Below the pieces are notes generated by a model. The model was not told where the DNA came from. It ran no database searches and saw only the letters and a program-made list of their open reading frames with translations. A stretch of DNA of 64,000 nucleotides from an uncultured Opitutia bacterium (GTDB lineage Bacteria; Verrucomicrobiota; Verrucomicrobiia; Opitutales; UBA953): positions 62,001-126,000 of the forward strand of contig CAMFKE010000002.1 in the NCBI GenBank assembly GCA_945957395.1, written 5' to 3'. The position numbers and the translations under genes were made by a program. Below, piece after piece: positions 45,010 through 60,923 of this stretch (positions are counted from its first letter, which is position 1; every line of letters begins with the position of its first letter).

Positions 45010-45035
45010 AAACGGATTTTTCAAAAAAGCCGTTT
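45010..45035. promoter_or_regulatory. 26-bp AT-centred palindrome between ppnP and fur
   Basis: AAACGG and CCGTTT arms enclose TTTTT and AAAAA tracts, so the whole 26 bp is nearly self-complementary. It could be a weak terminator for ppnP or an operator; the short spacing of the A/T tracts does not fit a standard terminator. Confidence 0.4.
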
Positions 45036-45200
45036 CCGCCCAGCAAACATCTCTCCTGCGGGGCTACGGAGCCCGGTCGGGCCGCCGCCGTCGGTCGCCC
45101 GCATAGCGTTCACACGCCCCCCTCACCGACTTTCGAAAACCGATCAGACGGGGGCGAAATGACCGGGCGGCAACCGCCGTGATCGGTCACGACCGCGGCA

Positions 45201-45515
45201 TCACTTCAGGAACGAACACACGTACTGGGCGATGCCCGAGGAAACCGTCACCGTGAAACCGGACTTGGCGGGCACATCGAAGTGCGAACCGGCGGCGTAG
45301 GTGCTGGTGCGGGAGTCGCCGTCGAGCGTCACGGCGCAGACGCCGTCGACGATTTCCATGCGCTCGGCCGCGTCGGTGCCGAAGTGGAATGTGCCCGGGT
45401 AAATGAGGCCGAGGGTCTTCTTGGAGCCATCGGCGAAGAGGATGCTGTGCGAGACGACCTTGCCGTCGAAGTAGACATTCGCTTTGGCGAGCGCGGTGAC
45501 ATTGCTGTATTGCAT
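45201..45515 (-). CDS. ppnP: Pyrimidine/purine nucleoside phosphorylase
   Basis: Phosphorolysis of nucleosides to base and ribose 1-phosphate. 104 residues from the ATG at 45515, the typical start MQYSNVTALAKANVYFDGKV. Single cupin-like barrel; conserved LGLIYPGTFHFGTDAAERM and SHFDVPAKSGF match the former DUF1255 family. Divergent from metF with a 24-bp inverted repeat between. Confidence 0.95.
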   Translation of the reverse strand: MQYSNVTALAKANVYFDGKVVSHSILFADGSKKTLGLIYPGTFHFGTDAAERMEIVDGVCAVTLDGDSRTSTYAAGSHFDVPAKSGFTVTVSSGIAQYVCSFLK

Positions 45516-45641
45516 GGTGCGAAAGGGCTGCACGACCCTTCCGCCGACGCAAGCCGCCGCACGCGGGTCCCGCGCGCCCGAAAGAAGGCGGAAACAAACT
45601 CCGAAACCGCATTTTTCCTCGATCGAACCAAATGCACATTG

Positions 45642-45665
45642 ACGAATCAATCAATCGTGATTCGT
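45642..45665. promoter_or_regulatory. 24-bp inverted repeat upstream of metF
   Basis: Perfect arms ACGAATCA and TGATTCGT separated by 8 bases, ending 11 bases before the metF ATG, in the ppnP/metF divergent region. Probable operator for an unknown regulator. Confidence 0.6.
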
Positions 45666-45676
45666 AGATTCAACAC

Positions 45677-46573
45677 ATGAGCGACGCTAACGCCATCCTT
45701 GCCAAACTGAACGCGGGCCGACCGAGCCTGTCCGTGGAATTCTTCCCGCCCAAGACCGAGGAGGGAGCGCGCCAGATTCTCAAGACGGCGGCGGCCATCC
45801 GCCCCTTCGGCGTGGACTTCGTTTCCATCACCTACGGCGCGGGCGGCTCCGGACGCGACCGCACCGTGGACTACGGCGATGTCCTGCGCGGCATCTTCGG
45901 ATTCGAGGTGATGGCCCACCTCACCTGCGTGGGACACTCCCGCGCCGAGCTCGAGACGGTCATCTCCGGATACGCGAACTCCGGATTCGGCGGCATCATG
46001 GCGCTGCGCGGCGACCCGCCCAAGGGTGAAACCGAGTTCAAGCCGCACCCCGAAGGCTTCCCCTACGCCTCCGACCTCGTGGCGTTCATCCGCCAAAAGT
46101 TCGGCAAGCGCTTCGCCATCGGCGTGGCCGGATACCCGGAAAAGCACCCCGAGGCGCCCGACGCGGCGACCGACCTGGCCAACCTCAAGCACAAGGTGGC
46201 GCAGGGAGCCGACTTCGTGACCACGCAGCTCTTTTTCGACAACGCGCACTACTTCCGCTTCGTCGACGAGGCGCGCGCCGCCGGCATCACCGTGCCCATC
46301 GTGCCCGGCATCATGCCCGCCCTCTCGCTCGACCAGGCGCGCAAATTCCACGCCTTCTGCGGCTCGCGCATTCCCGCCGAACTGGAGCGCCGCCTCCTGG
46401 CCGCCGACGCGGACCCCGAGGCGCGCCGCAAGGTCGGCGTCGACTGGGCCGTGGAGCAGATTCGCGAGCTCGTCGCCAAGGGCGTCCCGGGCCTTCACCT
46501 GTATGTGCTGAACCGACCCGACTCCGCCCTCGAGCTGCTCGGCCGCATCAAGTCCGAAAAGCTTCTCGGCTGA
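45677..46573 (+). CDS. metF: 5,10-Methylenetetrahydrofolate reductase
   Basis: Flavin-dependent formation of 5-methyltetrahydrofolate for methionine synthesis. 298 residues, TIM barrel. Motifs: LSVEFFPPKTEEG, FVSITYGAGGSGRDRT, HLTCVGHSR, GFGGIMALRGDPP, and FVTTQLFFDNAHYFRFVD; the glutamate in VEFFPP is the catalytic acid. Stand-alone gene with its own terminator. Confidence 0.97.
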   Translation: MSDANAILAKLNAGRPSLSVEFFPPKTEEGARQILKTAAAIRPFGVDFVSITYGAGGSGRDRTVDYGDVLRGIFGFEVMAHLTCVGHSRAELETVISGYANSGFGGIMALRGDPPKGETEFKPHPEGFPYASDLVAFIRQKFGKRFAIGVAGYPEKHPEAPDAATDLANLKHKVAQGADFVTTQLFFDNAHYFRFVDEARAAGITVPIVPGIMPALSLDQARKFHAFCGSRIPAELERRLLAADADPEARRKVGVDWAVEQIRELVAKGVPGLHLYVLNRPDSALELLGRIKSEKLLG

Positions 46574-46606
46574 CGCCGGCGCGGCCCGCCAAGGGCCTGC
46601 GCAAAG

Positions 46607-46637
46607 AAAAAGCCGGGCGTGCGACGCCCGGCTTTTT
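46607..46637. terminator. Bidirectional terminator after metF
   Basis: 14-bp stem (AAAAAGCCGGGCGT and its complement), three-base loop, T-run on both strands; serves metF and the convergent lipoprotein gene. Confidence 0.92.
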
Positions 46638-46673
46638 AGTTCCGCGCCGAAGAAGCCTCCGGCCGGATGAGAA

Positions 46674-46784
46674 TCAGAACAGCCCGCGACGCTCGATGGT
46701 CACGCCGTTCTCCTCGGTAGTGCCGGAGCAGCCGCCCATCACCAGGGCGCCCAGCGCGACAACGATCAGAAGTGCCTTTTTCAT
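46674..46784 (-). CDS. 36-residue lipoprotein
   Basis: Short ORF with a lipoprotein signal: two Lys after Met, hydrophobic LLIVVALGALVMGGC (Cys at residue 20), then only 16 residues, SGTTEENGVTIERRGLF. The mature peptide would be 17 residues. No family recognised, but the precise lipobox, a good purine-rich upstream sequence (GGACCCTCCGC complement) and the terminator at its end support a real gene. Just downstream of the 271-residue protein (23-bp gap). Confidence 0.65.
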   Translation of the reverse strand: MKKALLIVVALGALVMGGCSGTTEENGVTIERRGLF

Positions 46785-46807
46785 GCGGAGGGTCCTTTCA
46801 AAAACGC

Positions 46808-47623
46808 TCACTCGGCGGCGGGCGCGGGAGCCCCCTGGCCCAGCTTGCGGCGACCGAAGTCGTCCACCGAGCGGAAGAGGGAATGGAAGAAGGAGGCGAT
46901 CGTCACGGACAGGCCCATCAGTTCGCTGTTGGAGAACTCGATGGTGTCGCCGGCGCGGAAGCTGCGACGCGTGTCGGCCAGTCGCAGCTCGGGCTTGGTG
47001 CCCTCCGGGGCGCCCTTGGGCGGATTGATCTGCTGCACCGACTTGAACTCGAACGCCAGCTCGCCGTCGTCGCCGAGGTCCTCCGGAGCGACGACGCCGC
47101 CGCGGCCCATCATGATGCGCAGACCGAAGGCCAGCGAGATGATGCCGTCCTCCAGTTCGCACATGATGCCGAAGGACTTCTCGAGCTGATCGAACTTGTC
47201 CTGCAGAGCGGCGCGCACAAAGGCCTCCTGCGTCTCGCTCACCTTGCGATTGGCCTCCTCGGAGCCGGATTCCACGGCCGCCTTGTTGGCGATGAGCGTC
47301 AGCAGGAAATGGGTCTCGTCGAGGCATCCCGCCGCGAGGCCCAGCAGGTCGTTGAGCGCCTGCACGGTCACCTTGCCGCGCATCTGCTGCTGGATGCGGG
47401 CGTGGTCGGCATGAATCTGCTGCACCGGCATGATGCGCGCCAGACGGGAGAAGTACTCGTATTTCTCAGCGTCCACCGACTGGATGGAGGCCACCTCGTA
47501 GGCCAGCAGGTCGTGCCGGCGCTGCAGGGCGCCGAGATACTTGCGGCTGATGGCTTCAAGACTGATGACCTGTCCGCGGGGCTCTTCGGCGCCGGGTTGC
47601 TGCTGCTCGGGGGATTCGCTCAT
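46808..47623 (-). CDS. Hypothetical protein of 271 residues
   Basis: From the ATG at 47623. Mostly helical in the first 180 residues (SRKYLGALQRRHDLLAYEVA, KVTVQALNDLLGLAAGCLDE, KVSETQEAFVRAALQDKFDQ), then a beta-rich part (GELAFEFKSVQQINPP, FRAGDTIEFSNSELM) and a final amphipathic helix. No signal peptide, metal site or known motif is visible. It lies upstream of the small lipoprotein and divergent from ilvE. I do not recognise the family. Confidence 0.75.
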   Translation of the reverse strand: MSESPEQQQPGAEEPRGQVISLEAISRKYLGALQRRHDLLAYEVASIQSVDAEKYEYFSRLARIMPVQQIHADHARIQQQMRGKVTVQALNDLLGLAAGCLDETHFLLTLIANKAAVESGSEEANRKVSETQEAFVRAALQDKFDQLEKSFGIMCELEDGIISLAFGLRIMMGRGGVVAPEDLGDDGELAFEFKSVQQINPPKGAPEGTKPELRLADTRRSFRAGDTIEFSNSELMGLSVTIASFFHSLFRSVDDFGRRKLGQGAPAPAAE

Positions 47624-47819
47624 GTGAAAGATGGGGAGTGGTGAAAACCCGGCGGATTGAACGGGGAGCACCGCCCTTGGAAACGAAAAACGCCCTCCGC
47701 CCGGCCGAAAGTCGCCCCTCCCCTGCCGATGAAAAATCTCCCCCCGGCCGCCAATTCCGCGCTGGAGTTCGCCGCACGGAACCCTAGTCCCGTCGGCCTT
47801 TCTCACTCTACGAATCGCC

Positions 47820-48734
47820 ATGGAAGTCTACATCGACGGAAAGTTCTACCCCAAGGAAGACGCGAAAATCTCCGTTTTCGACCACGGTCTGCTCTACGGC
47901 GACGGCGTGTTCGAGGGCATCCGCGTTTACGACAACTGCATCTTCCGCCTCGATGAACACCTCGAGCGACTGGAGGACAGCGCCAAGGCCATCCTGCTTC
48001 GCCTCCCCTGGACCCGCGAGGAGATCGCCCTGGCCACGGTGGAAAGCTGCCGCCGCAACGGCATTCGCAACGGCTACATCCGCCTGGTCGTCACCCGCGG
48101 CGTGGGCGACCTGGGCCTTTCCCCCTCCAACTGCAAGGCGCCCTCGATCATCATCATCGCGGACACCATCAAGCTGTATCCGCCGGAGACCTACACCAAC
48201 GGCATGAAGCTCATCACCGTGCCCACGCCCCGCACGAGCCACGCCGCCCTGCCCCCCGCCGTCAAGTCGCTGAACTACCTCAACAACATCCTGGCCAAGA
48301 TCGAGGGACAGCTCCACGGCTACAACGAGGTGCTCATGCTCAACGACCAGGGCTACATCGCCGAGTGCTCCGCCGACAACTTCTTCGTCGTGCGCAAGGG
48401 CGTCCTGTACACGCCCGCCGTGCACGCCGGACCGCTTCGCGGCATCACCCGCGCGGTCGTCCTGGAAATCGCCGCCAAGCTCGGCGTGACCGTCTCGGAA
48501 ACCAACCTCACCCGCTACGACGCCTGGACGGCCGACGAGTGCTTCCTCACCGGCTCCGGCGCCGAAATCGTGCCGGTCATCGAGATCGACGGACGCGTGA
48601 TCGGCACCGGCAAGCCCGGCGAAATCACCGGCAAGATCCTGAAGTCGTTCCGCTCCAAGGTCACCAAGGAAGGCCGCATCATCGAGGCCGCCCCGGCCAA
48701 AAAGGCGCCCGCCGCCAAGGCCAGGAAAAAGTAA
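47820..48734 (+). CDS. ilvE: Branched-chain amino acid aminotransferase
   Basis: PLP-dependent transamination in Val/Leu/Ile synthesis. 304 residues, fold-type IV. Visible: VFDHGLLYGDGVFEGIRVYD, the PLP lysine Lys149 in VKSLNYLNNILAK, GYIAECSADNFFVVRKGVL, and GSGAEIVPVIEIDGRVIGTG. Pattern fits IlvE rather than D-amino acid transaminase. A Lys/Ala-rich tail (AKKAPAAKARKK) extends the C-terminus. Own terminator. Confidence 0.94.
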   Translation: MEVYIDGKFYPKEDAKISVFDHGLLYGDGVFEGIRVYDNCIFRLDEHLERLEDSAKAILLRLPWTREEIALATVESCRRNGIRNGYIRLVVTRGVGDLGLSPSNCKAPSIIIIADTIKLYPPETYTNGMKLITVPTPRTSHAALPPAVKSLNYLNNILAKIEGQLHGYNEVLMLNDQGYIAECSADNFFVVRKGVLYTPAVHAGPLRGITRAVVLEIAAKLGVTVSETNLTRYDAWTADECFLTGSGAEIVPVIEIDGRVIGTGKPGEITGKILKSFRSKVTKEGRIIEAAPAKKAPAAKARKK

Positions 48735-48759
48735 CGGACGAACCCCGTCCGCCCCGCTG

Positions 48760-48790
48760 AAAAAACGCCGGCTCATTGCCGGCGTTTTTT
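48760..48790 (+). terminator. Rho-independent terminator after ilvE
   Basis: Stem of 13 bp (AAAAAACGCCGGC and complement), five-base loop and a run of six T, 26 bases after the stop. Confidence 0.92.
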
Positions 48791-48978
48791 CGTATCCGCA
48801 TGGGCCGGCCCGGCGCCCCGGCATTTCCCTCAACGAAAGGCCAATACGAAAGGGATGACAAAGGCCCCTAGTCCGAAACTTGAGAACACCAGGCCGACGC
48901 CCACCCCAACCGGGAACGGGTGGCGCCAACGCAGCAAACCGGAACAAAGCCCCCGTGCGCCATTGACGCGCATGACTT

Positions 48979-49002
48979 TTGTATCAACAACTGTCTCAAC
49001 AA
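48979..49002. promoter_or_regulatory. Tandem 12-base direct repeat upstream of the third fur gene
   Basis: TTGTATCAACAA and CTGTCTCAACAA (10 of 12 identical) lie in tandem and end 3 bases before the fur ATG; possible binding site for its product. The motif is a direct, not inverted, repeat. Confidence 0.4.
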
Positions 49003-49005
49003 GCC

Positions 49006-49518
49006 ATGCCCCACCCCCGCACCAAATCCGCCCCGGCCGCCGCCCCCCAAGCCACCCTGCCCGACCGCGAGGCCTTCACCGCCCTGCTCGGACGAAAGGG
49101 CCTTCGCGTCACCGGCCAAAGGCTCGCCATCTACGACGCCGCGCTGGCCATCCCGGACCACTTCACCGCCGAGGACCTTCTCGACAAGGCCCGCGCCATC
49201 GACGACTCGGTGTCGCGCGCCACGGTGTACAGGGCGTTGCCCATCATGGTCGAAGCCGGCGTCATTCGAGAAGTGGATGTTGGACGCGACCACAAGTACT
49301 ACATCGCCAACCGCGATGTGGGCGGGGTCAAAATCCAATTGGTCTGCCTGGACTGCGACAAGATCATCGAGGCGGCGGCCCCCCCCATCATGGACTGGTA
49401 CGGCAAAGCCCTCTGCGCCAAGCACAACATGGAACCCGCGACCCAGCGCCTTCAGGTCACCGCTCACTGCCTCGGATGCGACCGCAAGATCGCAGCCATC
49501 CGCGCCAAGGCCAAGTAA
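49006..49518 (+). CDS. fur: Fur-family transcriptional regulator
   Basis: 170 residues from the ATG at 49006. Winged helix [16 protein letters not shown] and [20 protein letters not shown]; metal-binding/dimerisation domain has VCLDCDK and HCLGCDRK, the two CxxC pairs of structural zinc. An N-terminal Pro/Ala-rich tail ([15 protein letters not shown]) precedes the domain. The most canonical of the three Fur homologues and likely the general iron regulator, though that is an inference. Own terminator. Confidence 0.92.
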
Positions 49519-49548
49519 GGCAGCCCGCATCGGGGCAAATCAGAAATT

Positions 49549-49574
49549 GCCGGAGCAATCGCTCCGGCTTTTTT
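49549..49574 (+). terminator. Rho-independent terminator after fur
   Basis: 8-bp stem GCCGGAGC with its complement, four-base loop and six T, 31 bases after the stop. Confidence 0.9.
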
Positions 49575-49672
49575 GCGGCCGGCCCGAACATCTTCTTTTT
49601 ACAAGCGAACCGTTCGCTCCCGCTTGTACGCCCGGGGCAAACGAGTAACCAAGCCCGCGTTCCGCACCGACC

Positions 49673-50905
49673 ATGATCTCCCAGCCCCAAGCCGAGCTCC
49701 AACTCATCGAATCCGCCCTCCTGATGGAGTGTGTAGGACCGCGCCTGCAGTCGCAGCTCGGCAAGCTCCTCTCGTCGCAGGACGTGCACATGCTCGTCGT
49801 CTTCTCCTGCGCCGAAGAAAACCGCTTCGAGTTTCTGGAAGTCGGCCCGGGTCAGCGAGTAAAACGCCTCGCCGACGCCCTATCCTGCACCCCCGAAGGA
49901 TTGCACGCCCGATACATCGTACCCTCCGCCGGCTGCCAGCGAGACTTGCTTCCGTCCGGAATCACGCCGGCCCAGGTCATCCCCTACGCCTTGGGAAAAA
50001 TCGCGCCGGTGAACCCCGCCAGCACCAAGCCCGCCCTCAAGGTCGCCTCGTCCAAGGCTTCGACGGAAAAGCATACCGCTGAAAAATCCGCCGAGGCGCC
50101 GGCGCGGGAGCAAAAGAATCCCGAGTTGAAAGCGGATGACACCGCGCCTCACGCGGATTCCGAACCAAAGTCCGCCACGGACGCCACCCCCCGTCGCAAG
50201 GCCGCCCCGCAACCCTCTTTCGAACCGCTGAACGACGAAGCCCCGGCCGACACCCTTCGCCGCGCGCTCCACGGCGTGCTGGCCTCGATCACCGATCGCG
50301 AGGCGGCGCTCAACGCCCGGGAATCCTCGGTGACCGAGCGCAACGAGTACTTCCTCGCCAAGGAGCGCGAAATTGAAGCCGGCCTATCCGAAATCGCCTC
50401 TCGCGAAGCAGCCCTCGCAGCCCGCGAAGCCACCCTGTCTCCCCGTGAAAACCTCCTGGACGAGCGCGAGGAGGCGCTGAAACGCGCCGAGGAAAAAATC
50501 ACCCTTCTTGAGGACGACCTGAAGACGCGCAAAAACTCCGTCGCCTTCCGCGAAAAGAGCCTGGCTGCGCGCGAGCAGGAATCCGAAAGCAGGATTCTGG
50601 ACCTCAACGCGCGCGAAGGCGCCCTCGTGCCGGCAGAACGCGAAATCGCCGGACGGCTGGCCTCCCTTCAGGAGCAAGACGAGCAGCTCAAAACCCGCCT
50701 CGCCGCCTTTGAGGAGGAACGCGCGCGCATCGACGCCGAATTCCGCACGATGAACGAGGAAGCCAAGGAAAGGGAGGCCCGGCTGGAGTCCCGCGAGAAA
50801 GCCATCGCAGCCCGAGAGGCCACCTTCAAGGCGGAGACCACCGCCATGCTTCAGGCCTTGGAAAGCATCACGGCCGCCAGCCGAAACTTCGCTCCGGCAA
50901 AGTGA
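49673..50905 (+). CDS. Coiled-coil protein with heptad RE-AL repeats
   Basis: 410 residues. The first 100 form a globular alpha/beta part (LHMLVVFSC-like VHMLVVFSCAEENRFEFLE, GLHARYIVPSAGCQRDLL) without recognised family. Residues about 105-185 are Lys/Ala/Pro-rich and disordered. Residues about 195-400 are a continuous coiled coil with a repeated 7-residue pattern 'L-x-x-R-E-x-x' (REAALNARESSVTERNE, REAALAAREATLSPRENL, REARLESREKAIAAREATF). No signal peptide. It may be a scaffold or cytoskeletal filament, but this is inference. Transcribed away from fur with its own terminator. Confidence 0.8.
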   Translation: MISQPQAELQLIESALLMECVGPRLQSQLGKLLSSQDVHMLVVFSCAEENRFEFLEVGPGQRVKRLADALSCTPEGLHARYIVPSAGCQRDLLPSGITPAQVIPYALGKIAPVNPASTKPALKVASSKASTEKHTAEKSAEAPAREQKNPELKADDTAPHADSEPKSATDATPRRKAAPQPSFEPLNDEAPADTLRRALHGVLASITDREAALNARESSVTERNEYFLAKEREIEAGLSEIASREAALAAREATLSPRENLLDEREEALKRAEEKITLLEDDLKTRKNSVAFREKSLAAREQESESRILDLNAREGALVPAEREIAGRLASLQEQDEQLKTRLAAFEEERARIDAEFRTMNEEAKEREARLESREKAIAAREATFKAETTAMLQALESITAASRNFAPAK

Positions 50906-50940
50906 GCGCACCGCTTCGCCGAGAATCCCCTCGGAGAAAC

Positions 50941-50981
50941 AAAAATCCCCGTCGCTTCACTCCTGAAGGACGGGGATTTTT
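50941..50981 (+). terminator. Rho-independent terminator after the coiled-coil gene
   Basis: 13-bp perfect stem (AAAAATCCCCGTC and complement), 15-base loop, T-run; 35 bases after the stop. Confidence 0.9.
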
Positions 50982-51200
50982 CGTCTCCATCAGAAGCGCC
51001 CCCATCCGCGCTCCGGCCCCTCGGTAATTCCGACGACAAGCCCACCGAAAGAAAGGGGGAGGCCTATGCTTTCCGTAAAGAAGAAGGCCCCGATACAGGG
51101 CTCTCGCCCGCAGGGCGGTCCGGAGTAATGAGCCGGTGCCTCCGATTTCGATGCCCGATATGATGCGACGGAAATAGCGGGGGCGAATCGATTCACACCC
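50982..51200 (+). other. Leader region with folded segment before the spherulin-4-like gene
   Basis: No convincing ORF. Around 51090-51145 the plus strand can pair GGCTC (51100-51104) with GAGCC (about 51129-51133) enclosing a CGCCC-GCA-GGGCG hairpin, followed by further CCGG/GGTGCC complementarity. It may be an RNA element in the 5' leader; I could not match it to a known riboswitch class. Confidence 0.35.
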
Positions 51201-51977
51201 ATGCCCGACCCAATGCCATTCCGCTACGCCAAGCTCCTATTGCCCGTTATCGCTGTGCTGATTTCGCCCCCATTATCCCAAGGGGCAAAAATGCTGGTTC
51301 CCATGTACGCCTATCCCTCCGCGAACAGCGCGTTGTGGAACGGCGTGCGCGACGCGTCCTCTTCGGTTTCGATAACGGCCATCATCAACCCGGCCAACGG
51401 CCCCGGCGCCCGGGTCGACAGCAATTACCAAAAGCGGATCGACGAGCTCGATGCGCGCGGCGTCCAACTCGCGGGATATGTGCACACCGGATACGGCACT
51501 CGCCCGCTTGAGGCCGTCATCGCCGATATGGACGCATTCCGCACCCTTTATCCCAAGGTCACCATGATCTTCGTGGACGAACAGTCCTCCGATATCGCCA
51601 ACCTCGACTACTACCGGGCCATCCACGCCCACGCGGCCACGTCCGGATACACGCGCGTGTTCGGGAATCCGGGATCAAAAACGCCCGAAGCCTTCACGAC
51701 ATCGCCCCACATCCCTGTCACCACCGTGATTTATGAAAGCCCTTATACGGGTTGGACGACCTATTCGCCGGACGCCTATGTGGGGATGCGCGCCGCATCG
51801 GATTTCGCAATGATCGCGACCAATGTGGGGAGCGTTGAGCGCATGCGTCAGTGCGTGACCCTCGCCAGGCAGCGCAATATCGAGTACATCTATGTGACCC
51901 ATGACAAAGGCGCAAACCCCTACGACGCCCTTCCGACCTACTGGGCCGAGGAGACCGCCGCGGTGGCGACGCCCTAA
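51201..51977 (+). CDS. Secreted spherulin-4-like (GH135-type) hydrolase
   Basis: 258 residues. An N-terminal signal sequence (LLLPVIAVLISPPLSQGA) leads into the Spherulin4 (PF12138) pattern: MLVPMYAYPSANSALWNGV, IINPANGPGARVDSNYQKRI, GVQLAGYVHTGYGTRP, MIFVDEQSSD and the end region YIYVTHDKGANPYDALP. Fungal relatives (Sph3) cleave galactosaminogalactan; the acidic pair Asp126-Glu127 in the FVDE motif is in the catalytic position. The gene has visibly lower GC and freer third-codon use than neighbours, suggesting transfer. Substrate here is unknown. Confidence 0.85.
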   Translation: MPDPMPFRYAKLLLPVIAVLISPPLSQGAKMLVPMYAYPSANSALWNGVRDASSSVSITAIINPANGPGARVDSNYQKRIDELDARGVQLAGYVHTGYGTRPLEAVIADMDAFRTLYPKVTMIFVDEQSSDIANLDYYRAIHAHAATSGYTRVFGNPGSKTPEAFTTSPHIPVTTVIYESPYTGWTTYSPDAYVGMRAASDFAMIATNVGSVERMRQCVTLARQRNIEYIYVTHDKGANPYDALPTYWAEETAAVATP

Positions 51978-51991
51978 AGGCAGAGCCCGAC

Positions 51992-52025
51992 AAAAAAAGG
52001 GGAGGGCAAACGCCCTCCCCTTTTT
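51992..52025. terminator. Bidirectional terminator between the spherulin-4-like gene and the Pta N-half gene
   Basis: Stem AGGGGAGGGC with complement, four-base loop, A-run and T-run on either side, between convergent genes. Confidence 0.9.
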
Positions 52026-52060
52026 AGTCCCCGCCGGACCATTCAAAACAGCACTTACTC

Positions 52061-53224
52061 TCACAGCGACTCGAGCAGAGCCCGAAGGTCGACATGGTCG
52101 TGTATCAGGCTTTCGATGACGGGAATCTTATCCCTGTCTCCCGGCTGCGTCTTCACCGTCATGTTATTGATCTTCGTGGTGACCGCGAAGCTCTCCGCAT
52201 CCGTTCCGACGACCGGTATGGCGGTATGACGCAACATCTCCAGAATCCTCGAGGAGGGGCGCATATTGTTCGTGAGAATAATGCCGGAAACGACCGGGTG
52301 TCCGGAAATCCCCGAGGCGGCGATGATGGCGAAAAGCAGGTCCTCGCGATCGCCGGGCATGATGACCAGCGTGCCCGGACTGAGATAGTCCACGATGCTG
52401 CGGTCGGACATCGCCCCGATGATGACACGCGTGATGCGTTCGCTCAGCATCGGCTCCGGCCTATGAATCCAATGACCCTCGATCTCCTCGACGATTTGAG
52501 AGAGATTGGATTGGGCCAGTTTGGGCAGCATGGGCAGTACGCCCAGCAGCGGCAGCCCGAGACGCGCAAGCCCTCGCTCGCCGTACTCGCGGATAAACTC
52601 AAGCTTCTCGGGAAGCACCTTGTTGAGGACGGCTCCGACGCACTCCACCCCCATCTTTTCGAAAAGCGCCTTGTTCATGGCCAGCTCGTCGACCGGCTTG
52701 CCGATGCCGCCGGAGGCGACCAGCAGCACCTTGGCACCCAGCATGCGGGCGTTCGATGCGTTGGAGCAGTCGAACACCGAGCCGACACCCGCATGGCCGG
52801 AGCCCTCGATGATGACGATGTCGCGCTGAAAGGCCGCCCGATCAAACGCGCGACAGATGCGGTCGAGCACCTGGGGGCGCAGCTCGTCCGGGGTATCCAG
52901 ATATCGACGGGTGAAGGTGGGGTCGATGGCCACCGGGCTCATCGCCGCCACGGGGAGCTTCACATCGTAGATGGCGTTGAGCAGACGGGAGTCCTCGTCC
53001 ACCTGCTCCCCTTCCAGCTCGATGATGCGCTGCGCCACCGGCTTTATGTAGCCGACATTGAGCCCCATGGAGCGCAACGCGCCGAAAAGGCCCAGGGACA
53101 CGGTGGTTTTGCCGTCGTTCATCCGCGTGGCGGCCACGAAAAGACGACGGGTGGAATTGTTCAGCGGGGCTTCCAGAAGCCCGGGGACTTCCTCGGCGAA
53201 ACGCTTCTTCGTAAGAGCGGACAT
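52061..53224 (-). CDS. BioD-like/DRTGG-domain protein, N-terminal half of a split phosphotransacetylase
   Basis: 387 residues from the ATG at 53224. An N-terminal P-loop/dethiobiotin-synthetase-like domain (RLFVAATRMNDGKTTVSLGL at about residues 27-46, IKPVAQR, IVIIEGSGHAG) is followed by a DRTGG domain (RVIIGAMSDRSIVDYLSPGTL, VIMPGDREDLLFA, GIILTNNMRPS). These two domains form the N-terminal regulatory half of long Pta enzymes such as that of E. coli. It lies directly downstream of a separate catalytic Pta gene (94-bp gap, same strand), so this looks like a gene fission or an ancestral unfused pair. Confidence 0.88.
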   Translation of the reverse strand: MSALTKKRFAEEVPGLLEAPLNNSTRRLFVAATRMNDGKTTVSLGLFGALRSMGLNVGYIKPVAQRIIELEGEQVDEDSRLLNAIYDVKLPVAAMSPVAIDPTFTRRYLDTPDELRPQVLDRICRAFDRAAFQRDIVIIEGSGHAGVGSVFDCSNASNARMLGAKVLLVASGGIGKPVDELAMNKALFEKMGVECVGAVLNKVLPEKLEFIREYGERGLARLGLPLLGVLPMLPKLAQSNLSQIVEEIEGHWIHRPEPMLSERITRVIIGAMSDRSIVDYLSPGTLVIMPGDREDLLFAIIAASGISGHPVVSGIILTNNMRPSSRILEMLRHTAIPVVGTDAESFAVTTKINNMTVKTQPGDRDKIPVIESLIHDHVDLRALLESL

Positions 53225-53318
53225 GAATGGAAAGAGATTCGGGATTCGGAAGCAAAGACGCGAAAACGGAGCCAAGCCGACGGGTTCGAAGCGCCGTTCG
53301 CCCGGCGCTCCGCCCCGA

Positions 53319-54362
53319 TCAAACCTTGGGCACGACCGGGTAAAGGTAGCGCTTGTCCACCGCCTGGGCGGCGACCAGAACGGCGGTACCAAAGATGTCA
53401 AGCGCGCTGGCGCCGCGAGAAATCTCGGCGGCGGGACGCTCCAAACCGGTGAGAATCTGACCGTAGGCAGGGATTCCGGCGAGCAGCTGAACCATCTTCG
53501 AGGCGATGTTCGCCGAGTTCAAATCGGGGAAAACCAGCACGTTCGCCTGTCCGGCGACCGGGCTGTCGAGATCCTTCACGGCGGCGGTGAAGGGATCGAG
53601 CGCGGCGTCAACCTGCAGCTCGCCGTCGATTTCAACCGGCATGTCATAGTCGCGGGCCCGGGCCTTAGCCAGGGAGGTGGCGACCTTCACGCGCTCGACG
53701 CAGGCCGAACGGGTGCCGGAGCTCTTCGTGGAATAGGCAAGCATGGCCACGCGCGGGGCGTGGTTGGTGAGGTGATGCGCGAGCATCGCCGTGTTCACGG
53801 CCTGCGTGGCGAGCTGCTCGGCGGTGGGCTCGGGAATCACGGCGCAGTCGGTGAGGAAGAGCACTCCCTCGATGCCATATTTGCCGTCCTCCATCTCAAG
53901 AATCTGCATCGAGGACACCGTATCCACCCCTTCCTGACGGGGCAGAATCTGAAGGATGGGACGAAGTCCGGAAGCCGGCCCGCCGGTGGCGCCCGAGACG
54001 ATGGCGTCCGCCGCATGGGTGGCCACCATCAGCGTGGCGTAGTAGTTGGGCTGGGCCACCAGGTCCTCGGCCTCGAGGTCGCTCAGGCCCTGGAAACGCT
54101 GCAGCGAACGGAACTTCTTAACATACTCGGGAAACTCCTCCGTGCGGGTGGGCTCGATGATGCGGATGCCGTCCAGCTTGATGTTCAGCCGCGTCGCGTT
54201 GATTTTGATGCGGGTGCGGTCGCCGACCAGGATCGGAGCGCCCAGCTTGCGCGTGGCGAACTGACGGGCGGCCTGGATGATGCGCGGATCGGCGCCCTCG
54301 GGGAAAACAACGCGCTTCGGGTGATTCTGAAGGCGGACGGAAAGGCGGCTGATCAGCGACAT
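53319..54362 (-). CDS. pta: Phosphate acetyltransferase, catalytic domain
   Basis: Interconverts acetyl-CoA and acetyl phosphate. 347 residues, only the PTA_PTB catalytic domain: FPEGADPRIIQAARQFATRK, DLVAQPNYYATLMVATHAAD, AIVSGATGGPASGLRPILQI, FLTDCAVIPEPTAEQLA, MLAYSTKSSGTRSACVERVK and VFPDLNSANIASKMVQLLAG. Together with the downstream 387-residue gene it totals 734 residues, close to the single-chain E. coli enzyme (714). No ackA is in the window. Confidence 0.96.
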   Translation of the reverse strand: MSLISRLSVRLQNHPKRVVFPEGADPRIIQAARQFATRKLGAPILVGDRTRIKINATRLNIKLDGIRIIEPTRTEEFPEYVKKFRSLQRFQGLSDLEAEDLVAQPNYYATLMVATHAADAIVSGATGGPASGLRPILQILPRQEGVDTVSSMQILEMEDGKYGIEGVLFLTDCAVIPEPTAEQLATQAVNTAMLAHHLTNHAPRVAMLAYSTKSSGTRSACVERVKVATSLAKARARDYDMPVEIDGELQVDAALDPFTAAVKDLDSPVAGQANVLVFPDLNSANIASKMVQLLAGIPAYGQILTGLERPAAEISRGASALDIFGTAVLVAAQAVDKRYLYPVVPKV

Positions 54363-54490
54363 GGCGGGATATCCGGGGTTGGGGGTAGGCGCAGGCTGAC
54401 CCACCCGGGCGCTTCGGTCAAGAGGCGCTTCCTGCGCGAGCTCATCTTTCCGCTTTACCCTTTCGCCGCGACGCCTAACCCCTCCGCCCC

Positions 54491-55015
54491 ATGAGCAAGC
54501 CCGCCGCCTACCGCGCCACCCCCGCCGACACCGCCTCGTACAAGGCTGAAATCTTCAACAAGGTGCGCCTCATCGGCGACGCCTCAGCCTGCGAGCGCGA
54601 AGAGTTGCTCAGCGCACTGGAGCAGGCGGTCACCACGGCCGCGGAGGGCCCCTACGCCCCGCTCGCCGACGGCTACCTTTTCGCGACCTCCTGGGAGCCC
54701 CCCTTCAAGGCGCTGCGCGAGTTCGCCAAGAAATTCCCCCGCGCCAAAGTCGAGCTCACCTCGGACGCCTTCCATTCCGGATACTGGATCAGCCGTGCCG
54801 TTTACGAGGAAGGCAAGGCCGCTTCCGAAAACACCCTGACCTTCAACGATGGCGCCGCCTTCGAGACGCTCTTCAAGGAAATCCACGGTGTCGGCAGCGA
54901 GGAATGGCGCAAGACGCACAAGACGGGCCCCATCCGCGGCGGTTTCGCCTGGGGCGGCGTGGACGGATTCGACGCCTCCAAGTCCGAGCTCGGCAAGGCC
55001 GAAGGCCAGATCTGA
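54491..55015 (+). CDS. Hypothetical protein (ferredoxin-like fold?)
   Basis: 174 residues. No signal peptide. Middle segment YLFATSWEPPFKALREFAKK, then FPRAKVELTSDAFHSGYWIS, then YEEGKAASENTL, which faintly resembles Api92/DUF1281-like domains where a 'W-x-x-P' precedes a helix and a beta strand with aromatic residues; not firm. The Gly-rich end (RGGFAWGGVDGFDA) looks flexible. Divergent from pta; followed by its own terminator. Confidence 0.7.
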   Translation: MSKPAAYRATPADTASYKAEIFNKVRLIGDASACEREELLSALEQAVTTAAEGPYAPLADGYLFATSWEPPFKALREFAKKFPRAKVELTSDAFHSGYWISRAVYEEGKAASENTLTFNDGAAFETLFKEIHGVGSEEWRKTHKTGPIRGGFAWGGVDGFDASKSELGKAEGQI

Positions 55016-55034
55016 GCCCCTCACAGTCTCTCCC

Positions 55035-55071
55035 AAAAACGCGCGAACGGGCACCCCGTCGCGCGTTTTTT
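55035..55071 (+). terminator. Rho-independent terminator after the 174-residue protein
   Basis: Stem arms AAAAACGCGCGA and its complement with an inner ACGGG/CCCGT pairing, then a T-run. Confidence 0.88.
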
Positions 55072-55148
55072 GGATACAGACGTGCGAAGCCTCAGCCGCC
55101 GGCGGACCTCCGCTTGACGCAACGAAGGGAACCCGGAACCTCCCTCGC

Positions 55149-55943
55149 ATGCCACTCATAGACAGCCACTGCCACCTTGAGAGTTTCGCCAGGGCGAAAA
55201 CGCTCCCGGGCGTACTCGAACGCGCCAAGGCCGCCGGCGTGGAGGGGCTCATCGCCGTGGGCACCGACATCGACGACTGGTCGCTTTACCGCGACCTGGC
55301 CGCCGCCAATCCCGGATTCATCCGCCACACCGTTGGCCTGCATCCATGCCATGTGGAGCCTTCGTGGCACGACGCCGTCACGGCCATCGGCCCCATGTTC
55401 GCCGACCGCACCGCCCCCGTGGCGCTCGGGGAAATCGGTTTGGACAACTTCCACCTGCCCAAGGACGCCGAGGAGGCGCAGGAAGTGAAGCGCCTTCAGG
55501 AGGCGGCTTTCCGCACGCAGCTGGCCCTCGCCTACCAGTTCGACTGCCCCGTTGTCATCCACTCTCGCTCGGCCTTCGCGGACTGCGTGCGCATGATCGA
55601 CGAAAGCGGCGTGAGCTGGAGCAAGGTCGTCTTCCATTGTTTCTCGGAGGGGCCCGACGCGGTGCGCGAAATCAACCGCAGAGGCGGACTGGCCTCCTTC
55701 ACCGGAATACTCACCTACCCGAGCGCTCACGCCATTCGCGAAGCCGCGCTGGCCCAGGGTCTCGATAGACTCATGCTTGAGACCGACTGCCCCTACCTCT
55801 CACCGCAGGCCGTGCGCGGGAAAACCAACGAACCCGCACACCTCGCCCACACCGCCGAATTCGCCGCCAAGCTCTTCGGCGTCAGCCTCGACACTCTGGT
55901 CGCCGCCACCGAGGCGAACACTCGCCGCTTTTTCGGACTCTGA
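55149..55943 (+). CDS. tatD: TatD-family metal-dependent deoxyribonuclease/hydrolase
   Basis: 264 residues from the ATG at 55149. Metal ligands: DSHCHL (residues 5-10), the glutamate in ALGEIGLDNFH, His in VIHSRSAF and VFHCFSEG, and Asp in LETDCPYLSP. Matches TatD/YcfH/YjjV 3'-5' exonucleases in length. Chosen start removes a long unconserved in-frame extension that overlaps the preceding gene. Own terminator. Confidence 0.94.
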   Translation: MPLIDSHCHLESFARAKTLPGVLERAKAAGVEGLIAVGTDIDDWSLYRDLAAANPGFIRHTVGLHPCHVEPSWHDAVTAIGPMFADRTAPVALGEIGLDNFHLPKDAEEAQEVKRLQEAAFRTQLALAYQFDCPVVIHSRSAFADCVRMIDESGVSWSKVVFHCFSEGPDAVREINRRGGLASFTGILTYPSAHAIREAALAQGLDRLMLETDCPYLSPQAVRGKTNEPAHLAHTAEFAAKLFGVSLDTLVAATEANTRRFFGL

Positions 55944-56000
55944 CCCGACTGAAAAAAATCCGGGACGCGGGACGCGCAGCGCAGCCGGAACGCACAAAAG

Positions 56001-56035
56001 AAAAAGCCCGCGGGAAGTCTCCTCGCGGGCCTTTT
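56001..56035. terminator. Bidirectional terminator between tatD and tkt
   Basis: 7-bp stem GCCCGCG/CGCGGGC with A-run before and T-run after, an 11-base loop; between convergent genes. Confidence 0.8.
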
Positions 56036-56052
56036 CCTTTCGGTAGAAAACC

Positions 56053-58035
56053 TCAGACCGTGCGGGCGACGGCGACGAGATTCTCCTTCGTCAGTCCGAA
56101 CTCCTTGAAAATCTCACCGGAGGGAGCCGAGAGACCGAAGGTGTCGGTACCGAGCACCTTGCCGGACGCACCCACATACTTCCACCAAAGTCCGGTGATG
56201 CCGGCTTCGACGGCCACGCGACGCGCGCAGGACTTGGGCAGCACGGACTCGCGGTAGGCGGCGTCCTGGCGCTCGAACACCTCGAACGAGGGCAGCGACA
56301 CGACACGCGTGCCGGCGCCCAGCTCCTTCGCGGCGGCCACCGCCAGGTGCAGTTCGGAGCCGGAGGCGAGCAGGATTCGCTCCAGAGCGGCGGTCTCCTT
56401 CACGATCACATAGCCGCCGCGCAGCGCGCCGTTGCGACGGGTCTCCACGGAAATCTCCTCGATGCCGGGCAGGTTCTGGCGGGAAAGCGAAAGCGCCGTG
56501 GGGCCGTCCTTGCGGGCGATGGCGAGCGCATAGGCGGAAACGCACTCCTCGGCGTCGCCCGGGCGGATGACATCGAGATTCGGGATGCAGCGCAGCGCGG
56601 AAACGAGCTCCACAGGCTGATGCGTGGGCCCGTCCTCGCCCACGCCGATGGAGTCGTGGGTGAAGATGTAGAACACCGGCAGCTTCGCGAGGGCAGCGAT
56701 GCGGATGGACGGACGCAGGTAGTCGGAGAAGGTGAGGAAGGTGGCGCCGGAGGCCTTGAAGATGCCGTGGTAAGCGATGCCGTTCATGATCGCCCCCATG
56801 CCGTGCTCGCGAATGCCGTAGTAGAGGTTTCGACCCGCGGGCGTGGCGATGTCGAAGTCGCCGGCCTCCTTGATGTAATTCTTGGTGGAGCCGTGCAGGT
56901 CGGCGGAGCCGGAGAGCACGAGCGTCCTGGCCTTAGCCATGGCGTTGAGCACGACCTCGCCCGAGGCGCGCGTGGCGTGCGTGTTCGCGCCGAACGCGGG
57001 CACGAGCGCGGCGAGCTCGGCGGGGGAGCCGAAATCGAGGGCCACGCCCTTTTCCAGCTCGGCGGCCAGCGCCGGGTTGGCGGACTTCCATTCGGAGTAG
57101 GTCTTCAGCCAGGCGGCGTGGGCCTCGGTGCGGCAACGGTTGATGCCGGCGAAATACGCGCGGGTCCCCTCGGAGACGAAGAACTTGTCGGCGGGAAGCC
57201 CGAGCGACTTCTTGGCGGCGTCGACAAACTTCGCGCCCCCTTCGCCGTGCGCCTTGGGCGAGCCCTGCACCTCGGCGATGCCCTTGCCGATGACGGTCTT
57301 GCAGATGATCAGCTTCGGCTTGCCGTTCTTGGCGGCCTTGGCGGCGACATAGGCGGCGGCGACAGCGGCGAGGTCGTGTCCGTCGATCGTCCAGACCTGC
57401 CAGTTGGCGGCCTCGAAGCGCTTCTCACAATCCTCGTTCTGCGTCTTGGCGACCATCGCGTCGAGCGTCACGTCGTTGGAGTCGTAGAACAGGATAAGGT
57501 TGTCCAAGCCGAAGCGGCCCGCGAAGGAAACGGCCTCGTAGGCGACGCCCTCCTGGAGGCAGCCGTCGCCGCACAGGCCGACGATGGCATGGTTGAAAAT
57601 GGTGTGCGCGGCGGTGTTGAAGCGCGCGGCGGCCATCTTGCCGGCAACGGCCATGCCCACGAGGTTGCCGACGCCCTGCCCCAGCGGGCCGGTCGTGGCC
57701 TCCACACCCTCGGTCTCATGAAACTCCGGATGCCCCGGGGTCTTCGAGTGCAGCTTGCGGAACTTCGCGAGATCGTCGGCGGACAGGTTGTATCCGGCGA
57801 GATGCAGCCACGAGTAAAGGAACATCGAACCGTGGCCGGCGGACAGCACGAAACGGTCGCGGTTGATCCACTTCGGGGCGGCGGGGTTCACGTTCAGCGC
57901 GTGCCCGAAAAGCACGGCGCCGATCTCGGCCGCCCCCAGAGGCAGACCGAGGTGACCGGAATGGCAGGCCGCGATGGCGTCCATGGCGAGTCCGCGCGCT
58001 TCGTTGGCGGCGGTGGCGAGGGCTTGGGTGTTCAT
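56053..58035 (-). CDS. tkt: Transketolase
   Basis: Thiamine-diphosphate enzyme of the pentose phosphate/Calvin pathways; transfers two-carbon units. 660 residues, usual length. The ThDP motif [20 protein letters not shown], the substrate-binding [20 protein letters not shown] near the N-terminus, the middle pyrimidine domain [16 protein letters not shown], and [17 protein letters not shown] are all visible. Single gene; a 169-bp gap upstream includes a GC-rich hairpin without a T-run. Confidence 0.97.
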
Positions 58036-58204
58036 GTCGTGAAAGTTGTGAGGCGCGCGTGAGCTTGCGATTCGAGGCAGGGTTTCAACCGAGAAAAGGG
58101 GCGAGTGGGCGTAATGTTCCTTGCTCGCGCCCCGAGGCGCGCCGCAAAGCGAAACGGCGCGGCCCCCGCAGGGACGCGCGCCGCCTTGCGTATTCGGTTC
58201 CCGA

Positions 58205-59983
58205 TTACGCGTCGGCCACCGTGATGTCGGGCTCGAAGGTGATCTCGATCTTGTACGGCTGACCGGGACGAAGCACGAGCGGGTGATCGCGGTGCAGGGT
58301 CTGGTAGTAGTGAAGCTTGCCGGTGAGCGTGCGGTGCTCGGCGTCCTCCGAAACCACCTCGGTCTCCGCCCAAACGGCGCCGAAGTCGTCCTTGAGCACG
58401 GCGCAACGCAGGCTTTCGGCGCCCAGGACGAGCGTGGAGCCGAGACGGTAGCGGTGGTGGGGCGTGGCGATGGGCAGAACGAGGCGGAAGTTGTCCAGGG
58501 TCGTCTGCTGCTTCACCTGCAGGGTGAACTTGCCGGTGATGCGCCCGCCGAGGAACTCCCACTCGACCTTCCAGGAACCGATCCCGTTGACCACCTTCTC
58601 GTCAACGGTGACGAGCTCGGGCTGGTCATACTTGAAGATGAAGGCGCCCTTGAGGCCCATGGCCGTGGACACGTTCTTGCCGTAGAAGGAGGGGGAGAAG
58701 ACCTGTCCGCCGATCGTGGCCTCGGGAATGAACACGGGCTGGTAGCGGTTGGCGGGCCAGTCGAACACGCCCGGCATGTGCGGGAACGCCAGCGAGTCGG
58801 AATACTTGTGCGTGCCGCCGGAAACCACGGGAATCTGCACATGCAGCCCCGAAGCGGGGTCCTGATAAATGCAGAGGCCCTGCTCCTTGCGGGCGGAACG
58901 GTCGAACAGCACATACTTGCACACGGGCTTGCTCTGCACCGGGGCGGAGCCGACCATGTCGCCGCCGACCGTCTTGGCGAGACGCGCCCACTGGCACAGG
59001 TAGCGCGCGGCGTCGAAGTTCGCCATGCGCGTGGTGTGGTGGGCGATGGTGTCGCGCTCGCCGTCGCGAATCACGAGGAAGCCGTGCTCCTGGTCGATGT
59101 AGGTGGCGAAGAAATACTGGAAGAGGCGGCGCAGCGCATCCTTGTACAGGGGCATCTTGTCCTCGGGGATCCAGCCGTCGCGCATGGCCTGAAGCACGAT
59201 GGTGATGAGGTGCATCTGACCATAGGCGCCGACGCCGCGACCATAGCACCAGCCGAGGCCGTCCTGACGCACCATGTCCGGAACGAGCTTCACATACTTC
59301 TCGGCGAAGGTGCGAAGGCTGGGCAGCTTGCGCTCGCGCAGATGCACATTCGCGTGCAGCTGCAGGGCCTGCCGGATGAAGATGAACTGCATCAGGCCGT
59401 AGATGTCATAGGCGCCTCCCAGCGCGTCGGCGCGCTCCGCGGAACGCGGCGCGTCGTCGCAATAGCCGCCGGCGGAATTGGACTGGATGCGCTCGATGAA
59501 CTTCTCGATGAGCGTGCCGGTCTCGTCCTTCTTGGAAAGGCCCAGGGAGAAACGCGTGACCGACTTGGCGATGTTGAAGGCCTGGAAATGGTTGTCGTAG
59601 TCGCTGCGGTGCAGCAGACGGCGGTCGACCGCCTCGCGGGTGTCCTCGTTGAGACGCTCCCACACGAGATTGCGCTCCTTGGAGGGGCCGAAGGCGAGCA
59701 GGCCGAGGCCGGCGTAGGCGAGGCCGTTCTCCGACTCGGTGTCCTCGTGGATCTGATAGGTGAGCGTGCGGGCCACCAGGTCCACGATATCCACGCGATT
59801 GAGCATCACATCACCGGTGGCACGGTGGAATTCGCCAAGGGCCTGGGCGGCATGACCGGGTTCGTCGGGGCGGGAGGCTTCGCCGGGCACGGGTTCAATG
59901 GAGCCGTCGGGACGAATGGAGTCGAGGTTGTGACCGAGGATCGAACGAGCCAGGTCGAGGCACTGGTTGGCGAAATGTTGCAT
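58205..59983 (-). CDS. Large conserved-looking protein, possible alpha/alpha-toroid enzyme
   Basis: 592 residues, no signal peptide. The first 330 residues are helical and rich in paired aromatic/His motifs ([60 protein letters not shown]) and the rest appears beta-rich ([39 protein letters not shown]). This resembles the (alpha/alpha) barrel plus beta-sandwich layout of some polysaccharide lyases/heparinase-like proteins, but no catalytic motif is recognised, and a cytoplasmic location would be unusual. Downstream of a perfect TTGACA box. Confidence 0.75.
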
Positions 59984-60017
59984 GCTTGCCCTTTTTTGTG
60001 CTCGCCTGAAAAAAACC

Positions 60018-60023
60018 TGTCAA
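60018..60023 (-). promoter_or_regulatory. Consensus -35 hexamer upstream of the 592-residue gene
   Basis: TTGACA on the minus strand, 34 bases before the ATG, in an AT-rich stretch; no good -10 at 16-18 bp spacing, so promoter assignment is tentative. Confidence 0.35.
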
Positions 60024-60137
60024 TCGTGTAAAAAAATCACCGCAACCCCCTGATGGAAAATCGATTGGGGATGCTCGGGCGGGGCCGGTTTCCAGGCGCC
60101 GAAGAAAGCCGCCGGACCAAGGTGGGAAACAACCGGC

Positions 60138-60887
60138 CTATCGGCGCGCGTTCCAGGCCTCGGACGAGAAGCGCCCGACGGTTTCGCGCCGCAACGACTC
60201 GTCGAACTCGGGGAACGCGCACGCCTCGATCTCCGCGTCGCACACCAGCCCGAGCCGCGCGAGAAGCGCGCGATCGAACGCCGCCCAGTCGATGTCGCCG
60301 CAAGCCTCGCGGTCCACGGAACCTTGAAAAAGGATGCCTGCGCGCGTGCGTTTCTGCGCCGCTCCGGCAATTTTCCGACCATCGTCGGCGCGGACAACAT
60401 CATAGATTTCCGGCTGCACAAAGCAGACACCGGGGCCGCGCGGCTCGGCACCCGGCGCGCCCTCTTCGGACTCGGAAGCGCAGGATTCGCGAGGGCATGG
60501 CACGAGCCGGGCGGGAACCCCGAGCGAACACAGGGAGTGCGCGATGACCTCGTGCACCGCATGGTAGGACTGCGTCGCACGCGCCTCCGCCAAAGGATGC
60601 CCGGCCGGGGCGATAAGCATGTAGGTCCAGTCGTTCAGGTGCGAAACGACGCCGCCTCCCGTGGGGCGGCGAACAAGCGCCGGACCGGGGCCGGCGATTT
60701 CACGCACGCTGTCGCGCCGCTGGGAGACGCCGAAAGTGAAAGCCGGTTCGGACCAGCCGTAATGACGGAACCACAACGCGCCCGGAGCCGTGGCGTGCTC
60801 CAACAACATAAGGTCCGTCGCCATGTTCTCGGCGGCGGACGCGGTCCGGTCGGGCAGTACGCGAAGACGCATGGCGGCGGCACTCAT
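60138..60887 (-). CDS. Lipoate-protein ligase / octanoyltransferase family protein
   Basis: 249 residues of the BPL_LplA fold. Motifs: ALWFRHYGWSEPAFTFGVSQ, RRPTGGGVVSH (about residues 73-83), and GRKIAGAAQKRTRAGILFQG with the conserved catalytic/binding lysine. Attaches lipoate or octanoate to 2-oxoacid dehydrogenases and GcvH; cannot be assigned to ligase or transferase by sequence alone. The downstream-most gene of the mlaE-F-D-lipoprotein-DUF5069 cluster. Confidence 0.88.
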   Translation of the reverse strand: MSAAAMRLRVLPDRTASAAENMATDLMLLEHATAPGALWFRHYGWSEPAFTFGVSQRRDSVREIAGPGPALVRRPTGGGVVSHLNDWTYMLIAPAGHPLAEARATQSYHAVHEVIAHSLCSLGVPARLVPCPRESCASESEEGAPGAEPRGPGVCFVQPEIYDVVRADDGRKIAGAAQKRTRAGILFQGSVDREACGDIDWAAFDRALLARLGLVCDAEIEACAFPEFDESLRRETVGRFSSEAWNARR

Positions 60888-60923
60888 GTCGGCGAAGACG
60901 AATCCCCGGCAAGTTCGCCCGCC

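Follow-up and report, generated by a model that had tools for sequence, protein, structure and literature searches.

The window analysed here, 64,000 nucleotides of an uncultured Opitutia bacterium (Verrucomicrobiota, Opitutales; contig CAMFKE010000002.1, positions 62,001 to 126,000), carries on its minus strand a gene for a short phosphotransacetylase (Pta)-family enzyme, followed by a gene for a separate protein with a BioD-like P-loop domain and a DRTGG domain. We tentatively read this locus as a two-protein phosphotransacetylase system, in which the second protein may act in trans on the Pta-family enzyme as its ATP-dependent partner. The features of the locus, in window coordinates, are:

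53319..54362, minus strand: short phosphotransacetylase-family enzyme, catalytic domain only, 347 residues (translation; PTA_PTB 310.7 bits)
53225..53318, minus strand: intergenic gap of 94 nucleotides, with no promoter- or terminator-like site inside (consensus scan)
52061..53224, minus strand: unfused BioD-like P-loop and DRTGG protein, 387 residues (translation; AAA_26 and DRTGG)
53102..53131, minus strand: Walker A region of the second protein, residues 32-41, A-T-R-M-N-D-G-K-T-T (translation)
52511..53149, minus strand: BioD-like P-loop domain, residues 26-238 (Pfam; closest solved fold 1dts)
52160..52498, minus strand: DRTGG domain, residues 243-355 (Pfam; Foldseek match 2ioj)

The original prediction had described a 347-residue catalytic gene followed by a 387-residue P-loop/DRTGG gene, in an order that reverses that of the fused protein and that a frameshift cannot explain. 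Both statements hold: the translation and Pfam agree with them, and so does the NCBIfam model of full-length Pta (NF004167, 708 positions), with which the second protein aligns at positions 2-370 (153.6 bits) and the first at 392-705 (277.2 bits). Each stays under the whole-protein cut-off of 418 bits because it corresponds to one half of the modelled protein, and the two genes therefore correspond to the halves of a class II Pta, with their order exchanged. Class IIa Pta, in the class scheme given in the accessible text of PMC12724200, combines P-loop, DRTGG and PTA_PTB domains in a single chain; here there are two open reading frames, with a stop and the 94 nucleotides between them, in reversed order. 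A consensus scan of positions 51900-54700 found no promoter-like site and a single terminator-like site, which lies inside the second gene (2.0 expected by chance), so nothing in the region speaks against a single transcript.

The two-gene arrangement is real and conserved; a frameshift does not explain it, nor is it peculiar to this locus, and it recurs far too often to be due to chance. In a phylum sample of 115 genomes, 16 from the order of the window and 99 from outside it, the two genes were adjacent in 11 of the 16 order genomes and both missing from the other five. Among 87 genomes of the order, the second protein was found in 41 and a Pta-family gene in 47; these counts leave out a 26% identical, ligase-linked protein of genome G198 (tally with it, 42) and an 85-residue piece with three stops in G166 (tally with it, 48). 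All 41 carriers of the second gene also carry the enzyme, so that in this order the second gene depends on the first in one direction only, and the linkage is operon-like in 40 of them (24-190 bases between matches, 13 family codes); in G134 the two genes lie on different contigs. The best 80 of at least 536 related loci from named genomes give a similar picture, with the enzyme upstream on the same strand in 73 (some of these matches end at contig ends, and that of locus L115 lies at an estimated 730 bases), a cut by the contig end in two and no adjacent enzyme in five. Four of these five genomes encode the enzyme elsewhere, with 77, 74, 64 and 43% identity. Pair-bearing named loci include ones labelled Opitutae, Methylacidiphilales, Spartobacteria and Pedosphaera, and the pair of L119 is labelled Betaproteobacteria, a record that may be mis-assigned. 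In 11 loci read together with some 7 kb on either side, the pair was the sole neighbour relation common to all; one further family (MurJ by Pfam in L036) was nearby in five.

The first protein matches PTA_PTB across residues 3-331 with 310.7 bits (cut-off 24; profile positions 2-319 of 319), a stand-alone domain that covers nearly its whole length, as expected of a short PTA_PTB-family enzyme, and its best matches in the PDB are the short Ptas 6iow, 1r5j and 1qzt. Of the residues Ser309, Arg310, Asp316 and Arg87 of short Pta, which we take to be active-site positions, the first three have their equivalents in S315, R316 and D322; Arg87 aligns to Q88, with an arginine one position later, and a one-residue alignment shift is possible. 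Among 83 split Ptas, the Ser309 and Arg310 equivalents are present in all, Asp316 in 76 and Arg133 in 80. At the Arg87 position 42 of the split enzymes have Arg, 25 have Gln (including the window enzyme) and 16 have another residue or a gap, part of which may again reflect a one-residue shift; Arg stands there in 16/16 fused and 12/12 acetate-kinase-linked Ptas. The first gene product is probably an active Pta-family enzyme. The enzymes of six order genomes that have no second gene keep Arg310 in five cases, Asp316 in three and Arg87 in one, and may thus be altered enzymes. Additionally, we noted at L043:6867-7896 (G108:C5:76866-77895) a Pta whose match is divided between frames, as overlapping pieces of residues 1-51 and 50-343, next to an open partner gene; this Pta is either a broken gene or a sequencing error. 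The 724-residue Pta of L037, with an upstream in-frame extension, is no fusion; it contains PTA_PTB only.

In the second protein, Pfam places AAA_26 at residues 26-238 (101.9 bits, cut-off 27) and DRTGG at residues 243-355 (84.4 bits, cut-off 25.2), with no PTA_PTB, which is the composition of the unfused proteins named "phosphotransacetylase family protein". Its AlphaFold2 model has a mean predicted local distance difference test score of 90.6 and a predicted template-modelling score of 0.85. Among solved folds, dethiobiotin synthetases come closest (1dts: Z 21.6, root-mean-square deviation 3.0, 214 residues), and the C-terminal part matches the DRTGG protein 2ioj in Foldseek (E 8.8e-9, root-mean-square deviation 2.4, 119 columns). 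Alignment with 1dts maps K15, T16, K37, D54 and E115 of BioD, which we take to be its Mg-ATP residues, to K39, T40, K61, D78 and E140, so that the set is complete in the window protein.

This ATP site separates unfused from fused proteins. In an alignment of 130 proteins, accepting S as well as T at the second residue and leaving out L025 and L050 (290-residue frame) and L178 (fused fragment), the five-residue set is complete in 113 of 114 unfused proteins, the remaining one being unreadable, and in none of 16 fused Ptas; K39 and T40 are kept in all readable unfused proteins. By group, the set is complete in 88/89 split (one unreadable), 6/6 unlinked, 6/6 other unfused and 10/10 haloarchaeal proteins, and in 3/3 ligase-linked proteins of the order. 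The 89 split rows include L068 and L094, which end at a contig end and are labelled split from their hit-list position only, and count at least four genomes twice (L064/L034, L085/L040, L092/L035, L097/L036). In the fused rows the Walker lysine is replaced by leucine and the aspartate lost (12 rows), or the second lysine is replaced by arginine (4 rows).

The columns of T11 and S41, presumably the substrate residues of BioD, hold M35 and Q65 in the window protein, and nearly all split rows have M or Q at the first and Q at the second. Against the NCBIfam bioD equivalog the second protein scores 40.8 bits (cut-off 83.3), and the genome holds another bioD-like gene, at 81.4 bits just under that cut-off, next to an apparent biotin synthase gene. 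The second protein can therefore be ruled out as the sole BioD of the genome, and with its changed substrate residues it is probably not BioD, yet has the nucleotide site of BioD. The other DRTGG gene of the genome (L002) reads, in our interpretation, as a CBS/DHH pyrophosphatase-type protein.

The same unfused module occurs beside a different acetyl-CoA enzyme. A protein search of plasmids gave 17 records, 10 of them haloarchaeal, all unfused and 23-28% identical to the window protein. In 9/9 annotated haloarchaeal hits an acetate-CoA ligase gene lies directly upstream and overlaps the module gene by 4 bases; the tenth record has no annotation and hence stands outside this count. The single haloarchaeal ligase scored, that of L139, passes TIGR02717 (acetate-CoA ligase alpha subunit; 570.5 vs 567.15 bits). 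Within the order of the window, G144 and G160 carry, in addition to the Pta-linked second protein, a distant unfused one directly after an acetate-CoA-ligase-type gene, and in G198 a distant unfused protein follows a ligase-type gene after about 390 bases. The G144 ligase, cut at the locus start, reaches 441.7 bits, under the TIGR02717 cut-off, and its acid is thus not certain. According to the accessible text of PMC11784441, a "putative PTA" (364 residues) of undetermined function is widespread in haloarchaea next to ADP-forming acetyl-CoA synthetase, and the HFX_0997/HFX_0998 gene order told there resembles our ligase-module order. As the plasmid homologue L139 matches the N-terminal half only of the Pta model, this haloarchaeal protein (HFX_0997) is probably the same unfused module, judged from L139. 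In Desulfovibrio, the unfused AAA and DRTGG gene DVU3031 lies in the pta-ack-lactate operon, matters for growth on L-lactate and is called uncharacterised in the accessible text of PMC10102598.

The original prediction had suggested that the second protein may act in trans. We consider this likely because of the co-occurrence in 41/41 genomes, the conserved linkage and the same module beside another acetyl-CoA enzyme; contact and effect are what we infer, as are the substrate of the enzyme, ATP binding and hydrolysis, and the direction of the effect. In the mechanism that we propose, the first gene would yield a short Pta-family enzyme converting acetyl-CoA and phosphate to acetyl-phosphate and CoA, and the second a separate P-loop protein that would bind Mg-ATP. 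Its DRTGG domain might dock on the enzyme or the enzyme oligomer, and the docked protein could then set Pta activity by the energy state of the cell. In the E. coli-type fused enzyme the same module would have joined Pta separately, and its ATP site would then have decayed, and in haloarchaea and a few genomes of the order the unfused module would have become associated with acetate-CoA ligase instead. For the "regulatory half", E. coli-type regulation (NADH, pyruvate) is perhaps the wrong comparison, since the window protein has an intact ATP site and the E. coli-type enzyme a broken one.

Several observations weigh against a Pta with a dedicated partner. The first protein falls below the NCBIfam Pta cut-offs (TIGR00651, 274 vs 311.2 bits; PRK09653, 283.8 vs 310), although Pta models are still its top-scoring NCBIfam models; it is therefore a divergent member, and its substrate is not certain. 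Outside the order, the two genes were adjacent in 0/99 genomes of the phylum sample, and within it six genomes have the enzyme without the second gene (G137, G154, G167, G181, G195 and G198, four from one family plus G195 and G198), so the second gene is not always needed. The co-occurrence counts also ignore kinship. In G119 (locus L118), the fifth named genome in which no enzyme gene adjoins the second gene and one of unstated completeness, the enzyme was not matched anywhere, and G046 has a 40% identical unfused protein in a genome with no detectable Pta or acetate-kinase match. Moreover, DVU3031 was placed outside lactate oxidation and called usually absent in an earlier Desulfovibrio paper, as far as the accessible text of PMC4481167 goes.

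The acetate pathway of these genomes bears on what the second protein might do. The acetate kinase family PF00871 was matched in none of the six genomes of the window's family, including the window's own (96.1% complete), all of which have a Pta-family gene, and the partner might therefore replace acetate kinase. PF00871 is represented in 24 of the 41 order genomes that bear the pair, with a near-full-length match (model from about 1 to end, >400 bits) in five (G126, G142, G144, G178, G185); four of these five also have a fused Pta, which in G126 is adjacent to the kinase. Phosphoketolase, considered as a source of acetyl-phosphate for a Pta without acetate kinase, was rejected (PF03894 matched in 0/16 order genomes of the phylum sample). 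ADP-forming acetate-CoA ligase was likewise rejected as a replacement: long-frame (621-733 residues) PF13607 matches occur in 7/87 order genomes, with none in the window's genome, whose one PF13607 match is a 311-residue frame that we read as succinate-CoA ligase.

In the order, L188 (1130-2311) and L189 encode divergent acetate-kinase-family proteins with FK instead of HR in the GHRxVHG motif, and their substrate may differ. Partial acetate/butyrate-kinase-family matches lie close beside Ptas in G079:C6, G084:C5, G090:C17 and G104:C130; three Ptas of this group, placed in the catalytic tree, form a small clade of their own. In the same class, ten genomes of family code f4 (e.g., G030 and G111) have a short Pta and no acetate-kinase-family match.

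If the second protein were an ATP-using acyl-phosphate enzyme, i.e., a BioD/CobB-fold carboxylate kinase that replaces acetate kinase downstream of Pta, the lack of PF00871 in the window's family would be accounted for. The missing phosphoketolase match in the sampled order genomes and the complete ATP site would fit as well, and the BioD reaction itself proceeds via a mixed carbamic-phosphoric anhydride. Lacking both acetate kinase and a long ligase frame is also a trait of 17/41 pair-bearing vs 0/6 enzyme-only genomes (Fisher p = 0.074, kinship ignored). However, the 24 pair-bearing genomes noted above do carry an acetate-kinase-family protein, and instead of a clean uncoupling the family is commoner among carriers of a Pta gene (29/47) than among non-carriers (8/40; Fisher p = 1e-4, kinship ignored). 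G195, of the window's family, has neither partner nor acetate kinase match, yet has a ligase-type frame; the haloarchaeal module adjoins a ligase, which needs no kinase; and no substrate site was identified in the second protein. On balance such a kinase appears improbable from the sequences. Mere co-transcription, with the second protein doing an ATP-dependent job of its own in a related pathway, is somewhat unlikely, though quite conceivable. Linkage alone is no proof of contact, and unfused relatives do occur away from Pta: that of G046 lies between DciA and a biotin/lipoate-ligase-like gene (L044:7270-9554), and an Fe-S pyridine-nucleotide oxidoreductase-type gene (by Pfam for that of L048 only) immediately precedes an unfused AAA_26-type protein in L048:6507-9472 and L049:7148-10122. 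Yet no second-gene carrier among the 41 lacks the enzyme, the four named genomes and G134 retain both genes though unlinked, and in class II enzymes Pta and the homologous region form one covalent chain, all of which speaks against mere co-transcription. In L046, related to L048 and L049, Pfam found AAA_26 and did not find DRTGG.

Two further alternatives concern descent, which we addressed with trees of 64 P-loop/DRTGG regions and 68 catalytic domains (26 and 22 random split rows, respectively), both unrooted and with long branches. A single branch of the P-loop/DRTGG tree sets off the 16 fused rows (support 92/92, 90% of 200 bootstrap trees), and in the catalytic tree these rows form one group (100/99) that shares its side with the acetate-kinase-linked short Ptas; the split Ptas and three other short ones lie across a supported branch (97/92). 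In the approximately unbiased (AU) test, the split side and the fused enzymes as one clade were rejected for the catalytic domain (p = 0.00996, the group having been named after seeing the tree) and not rejected for the P-loop/DRTGG part (p = 0.0603). In the phylogeny of fused and unfused forms that had been proposed as a check, the catalytic part sets split apart from fused, and the P-loop/DRTGG part does not settle the matter. That the pair arose when a fused class II Pta split and was rearranged appears very improbable: some genomes of the order do have a fused Pta as a second copy (G126, G142, G178 and G185) and the P-loop/DRTGG test leaves room for a common clade, but the catalytic test, the reversed gene order and the need to regain an ATP site that is broken in all 16 fused rows speak against it. 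We also give little credence to the pair as the direct pre-fusion ancestor of the E. coli-type enzyme. The unfused form looks older because it keeps the BioD-like ATP residues, which the fused proteins examined do not, and to this extent the suggested "pre-fusion state" stands; however, the split catalytic domain is not a sister of the fused ones, so the window pair is not their direct parent; the gene order is also reversed, and the trees are unrooted. We read this as separate associations of Pta and module in the split and fused lineages, the latter having presumably lost the ATP site.

The immediate surroundings of the pair are as follows. A gene for a Spherulin4-domain protein (window 51201-51977, plus strand) is convergent with the second gene and lies just past its end. 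Upstream on the pair's strand, a transketolase gene (window 56053-58035, minus strand) is separated from the pair by plus-strand genes at 54491-55943, including one for a TatD-type DNase. No known RNA family reached its gathering score within 45000-62000.

Unfused AAA-DRTGG proteins as such are already in print, and the accessible text of PMC12724200 regards the N-terminal half of long Pta as a fused region for regulation and oligomerisation. A literature search of partial coverage found no description of a split Pta in Verrucomicrobiota or of the contrast between fused and unfused ATP sites. A two-gene form that occurs naturally and has its ATP site intact makes this region studyable as a separate protein that can be added or removed at will, and suggests that the original job of the Pta N-terminal region depended on ATP. 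It also provides a specific hypothesis on the function of the "putative PTA" that adjoins ADP-forming acetyl-CoA synthetase in haloarchaea (accessible text of PMC11784441) and of DVU3031 (likewise PMC10102598), and raises the question of how acetyl-phosphate is used in lineages with Pta but without acetate kinase. More broadly, unfused BioD-DRTGG proteins might constitute an unrecognised family of ATP-using partners, of Pta in Verrucomicrobiota and of acetate-CoA ligase in haloarchaea, with class II Pta as a nucleotide-dead relic and the partner as a non-homologous acetate kinase in lineages free of that enzyme, a combination that we regard as a long shot.

Compared with known systems, the second protein shares with BioD the fold and the Mg-ATP residues and differs in the two substrate residues. 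The catalytic gene resembles class I short Pta (e.g., 1qzt and 1td9) in its full-length domain with Ser, Arg and Asp equivalents, but scores under the NCBIfam Pta cut-offs and has Q aligned at the Arg87 position. Class IIa Pta of E. coli comprises the same three domains as the window pair, in contrast as one polypeptide in the opposite order and with the ATP-site residues broken in 16/16 fused rows; moreover, E. coli Pta adjoins acetate kinase, whereas the window genome has no acetate kinase match. DVU3031 of Desulfovibrio vulgaris, likened to the window protein by description, is also an unfused AAA and DRTGG gene in a pta-ack operon, but adjoins a fused Pta and acetate kinase. The haloarchaeal "phosphotransacetylase family protein", with a ligase instead of Pta as its partner and 23-28% identity to the window protein, is likewise an unfused P-loop and DRTGG-type protein that has an intact ATP site and follows the gene of an acetyl-CoA enzyme.

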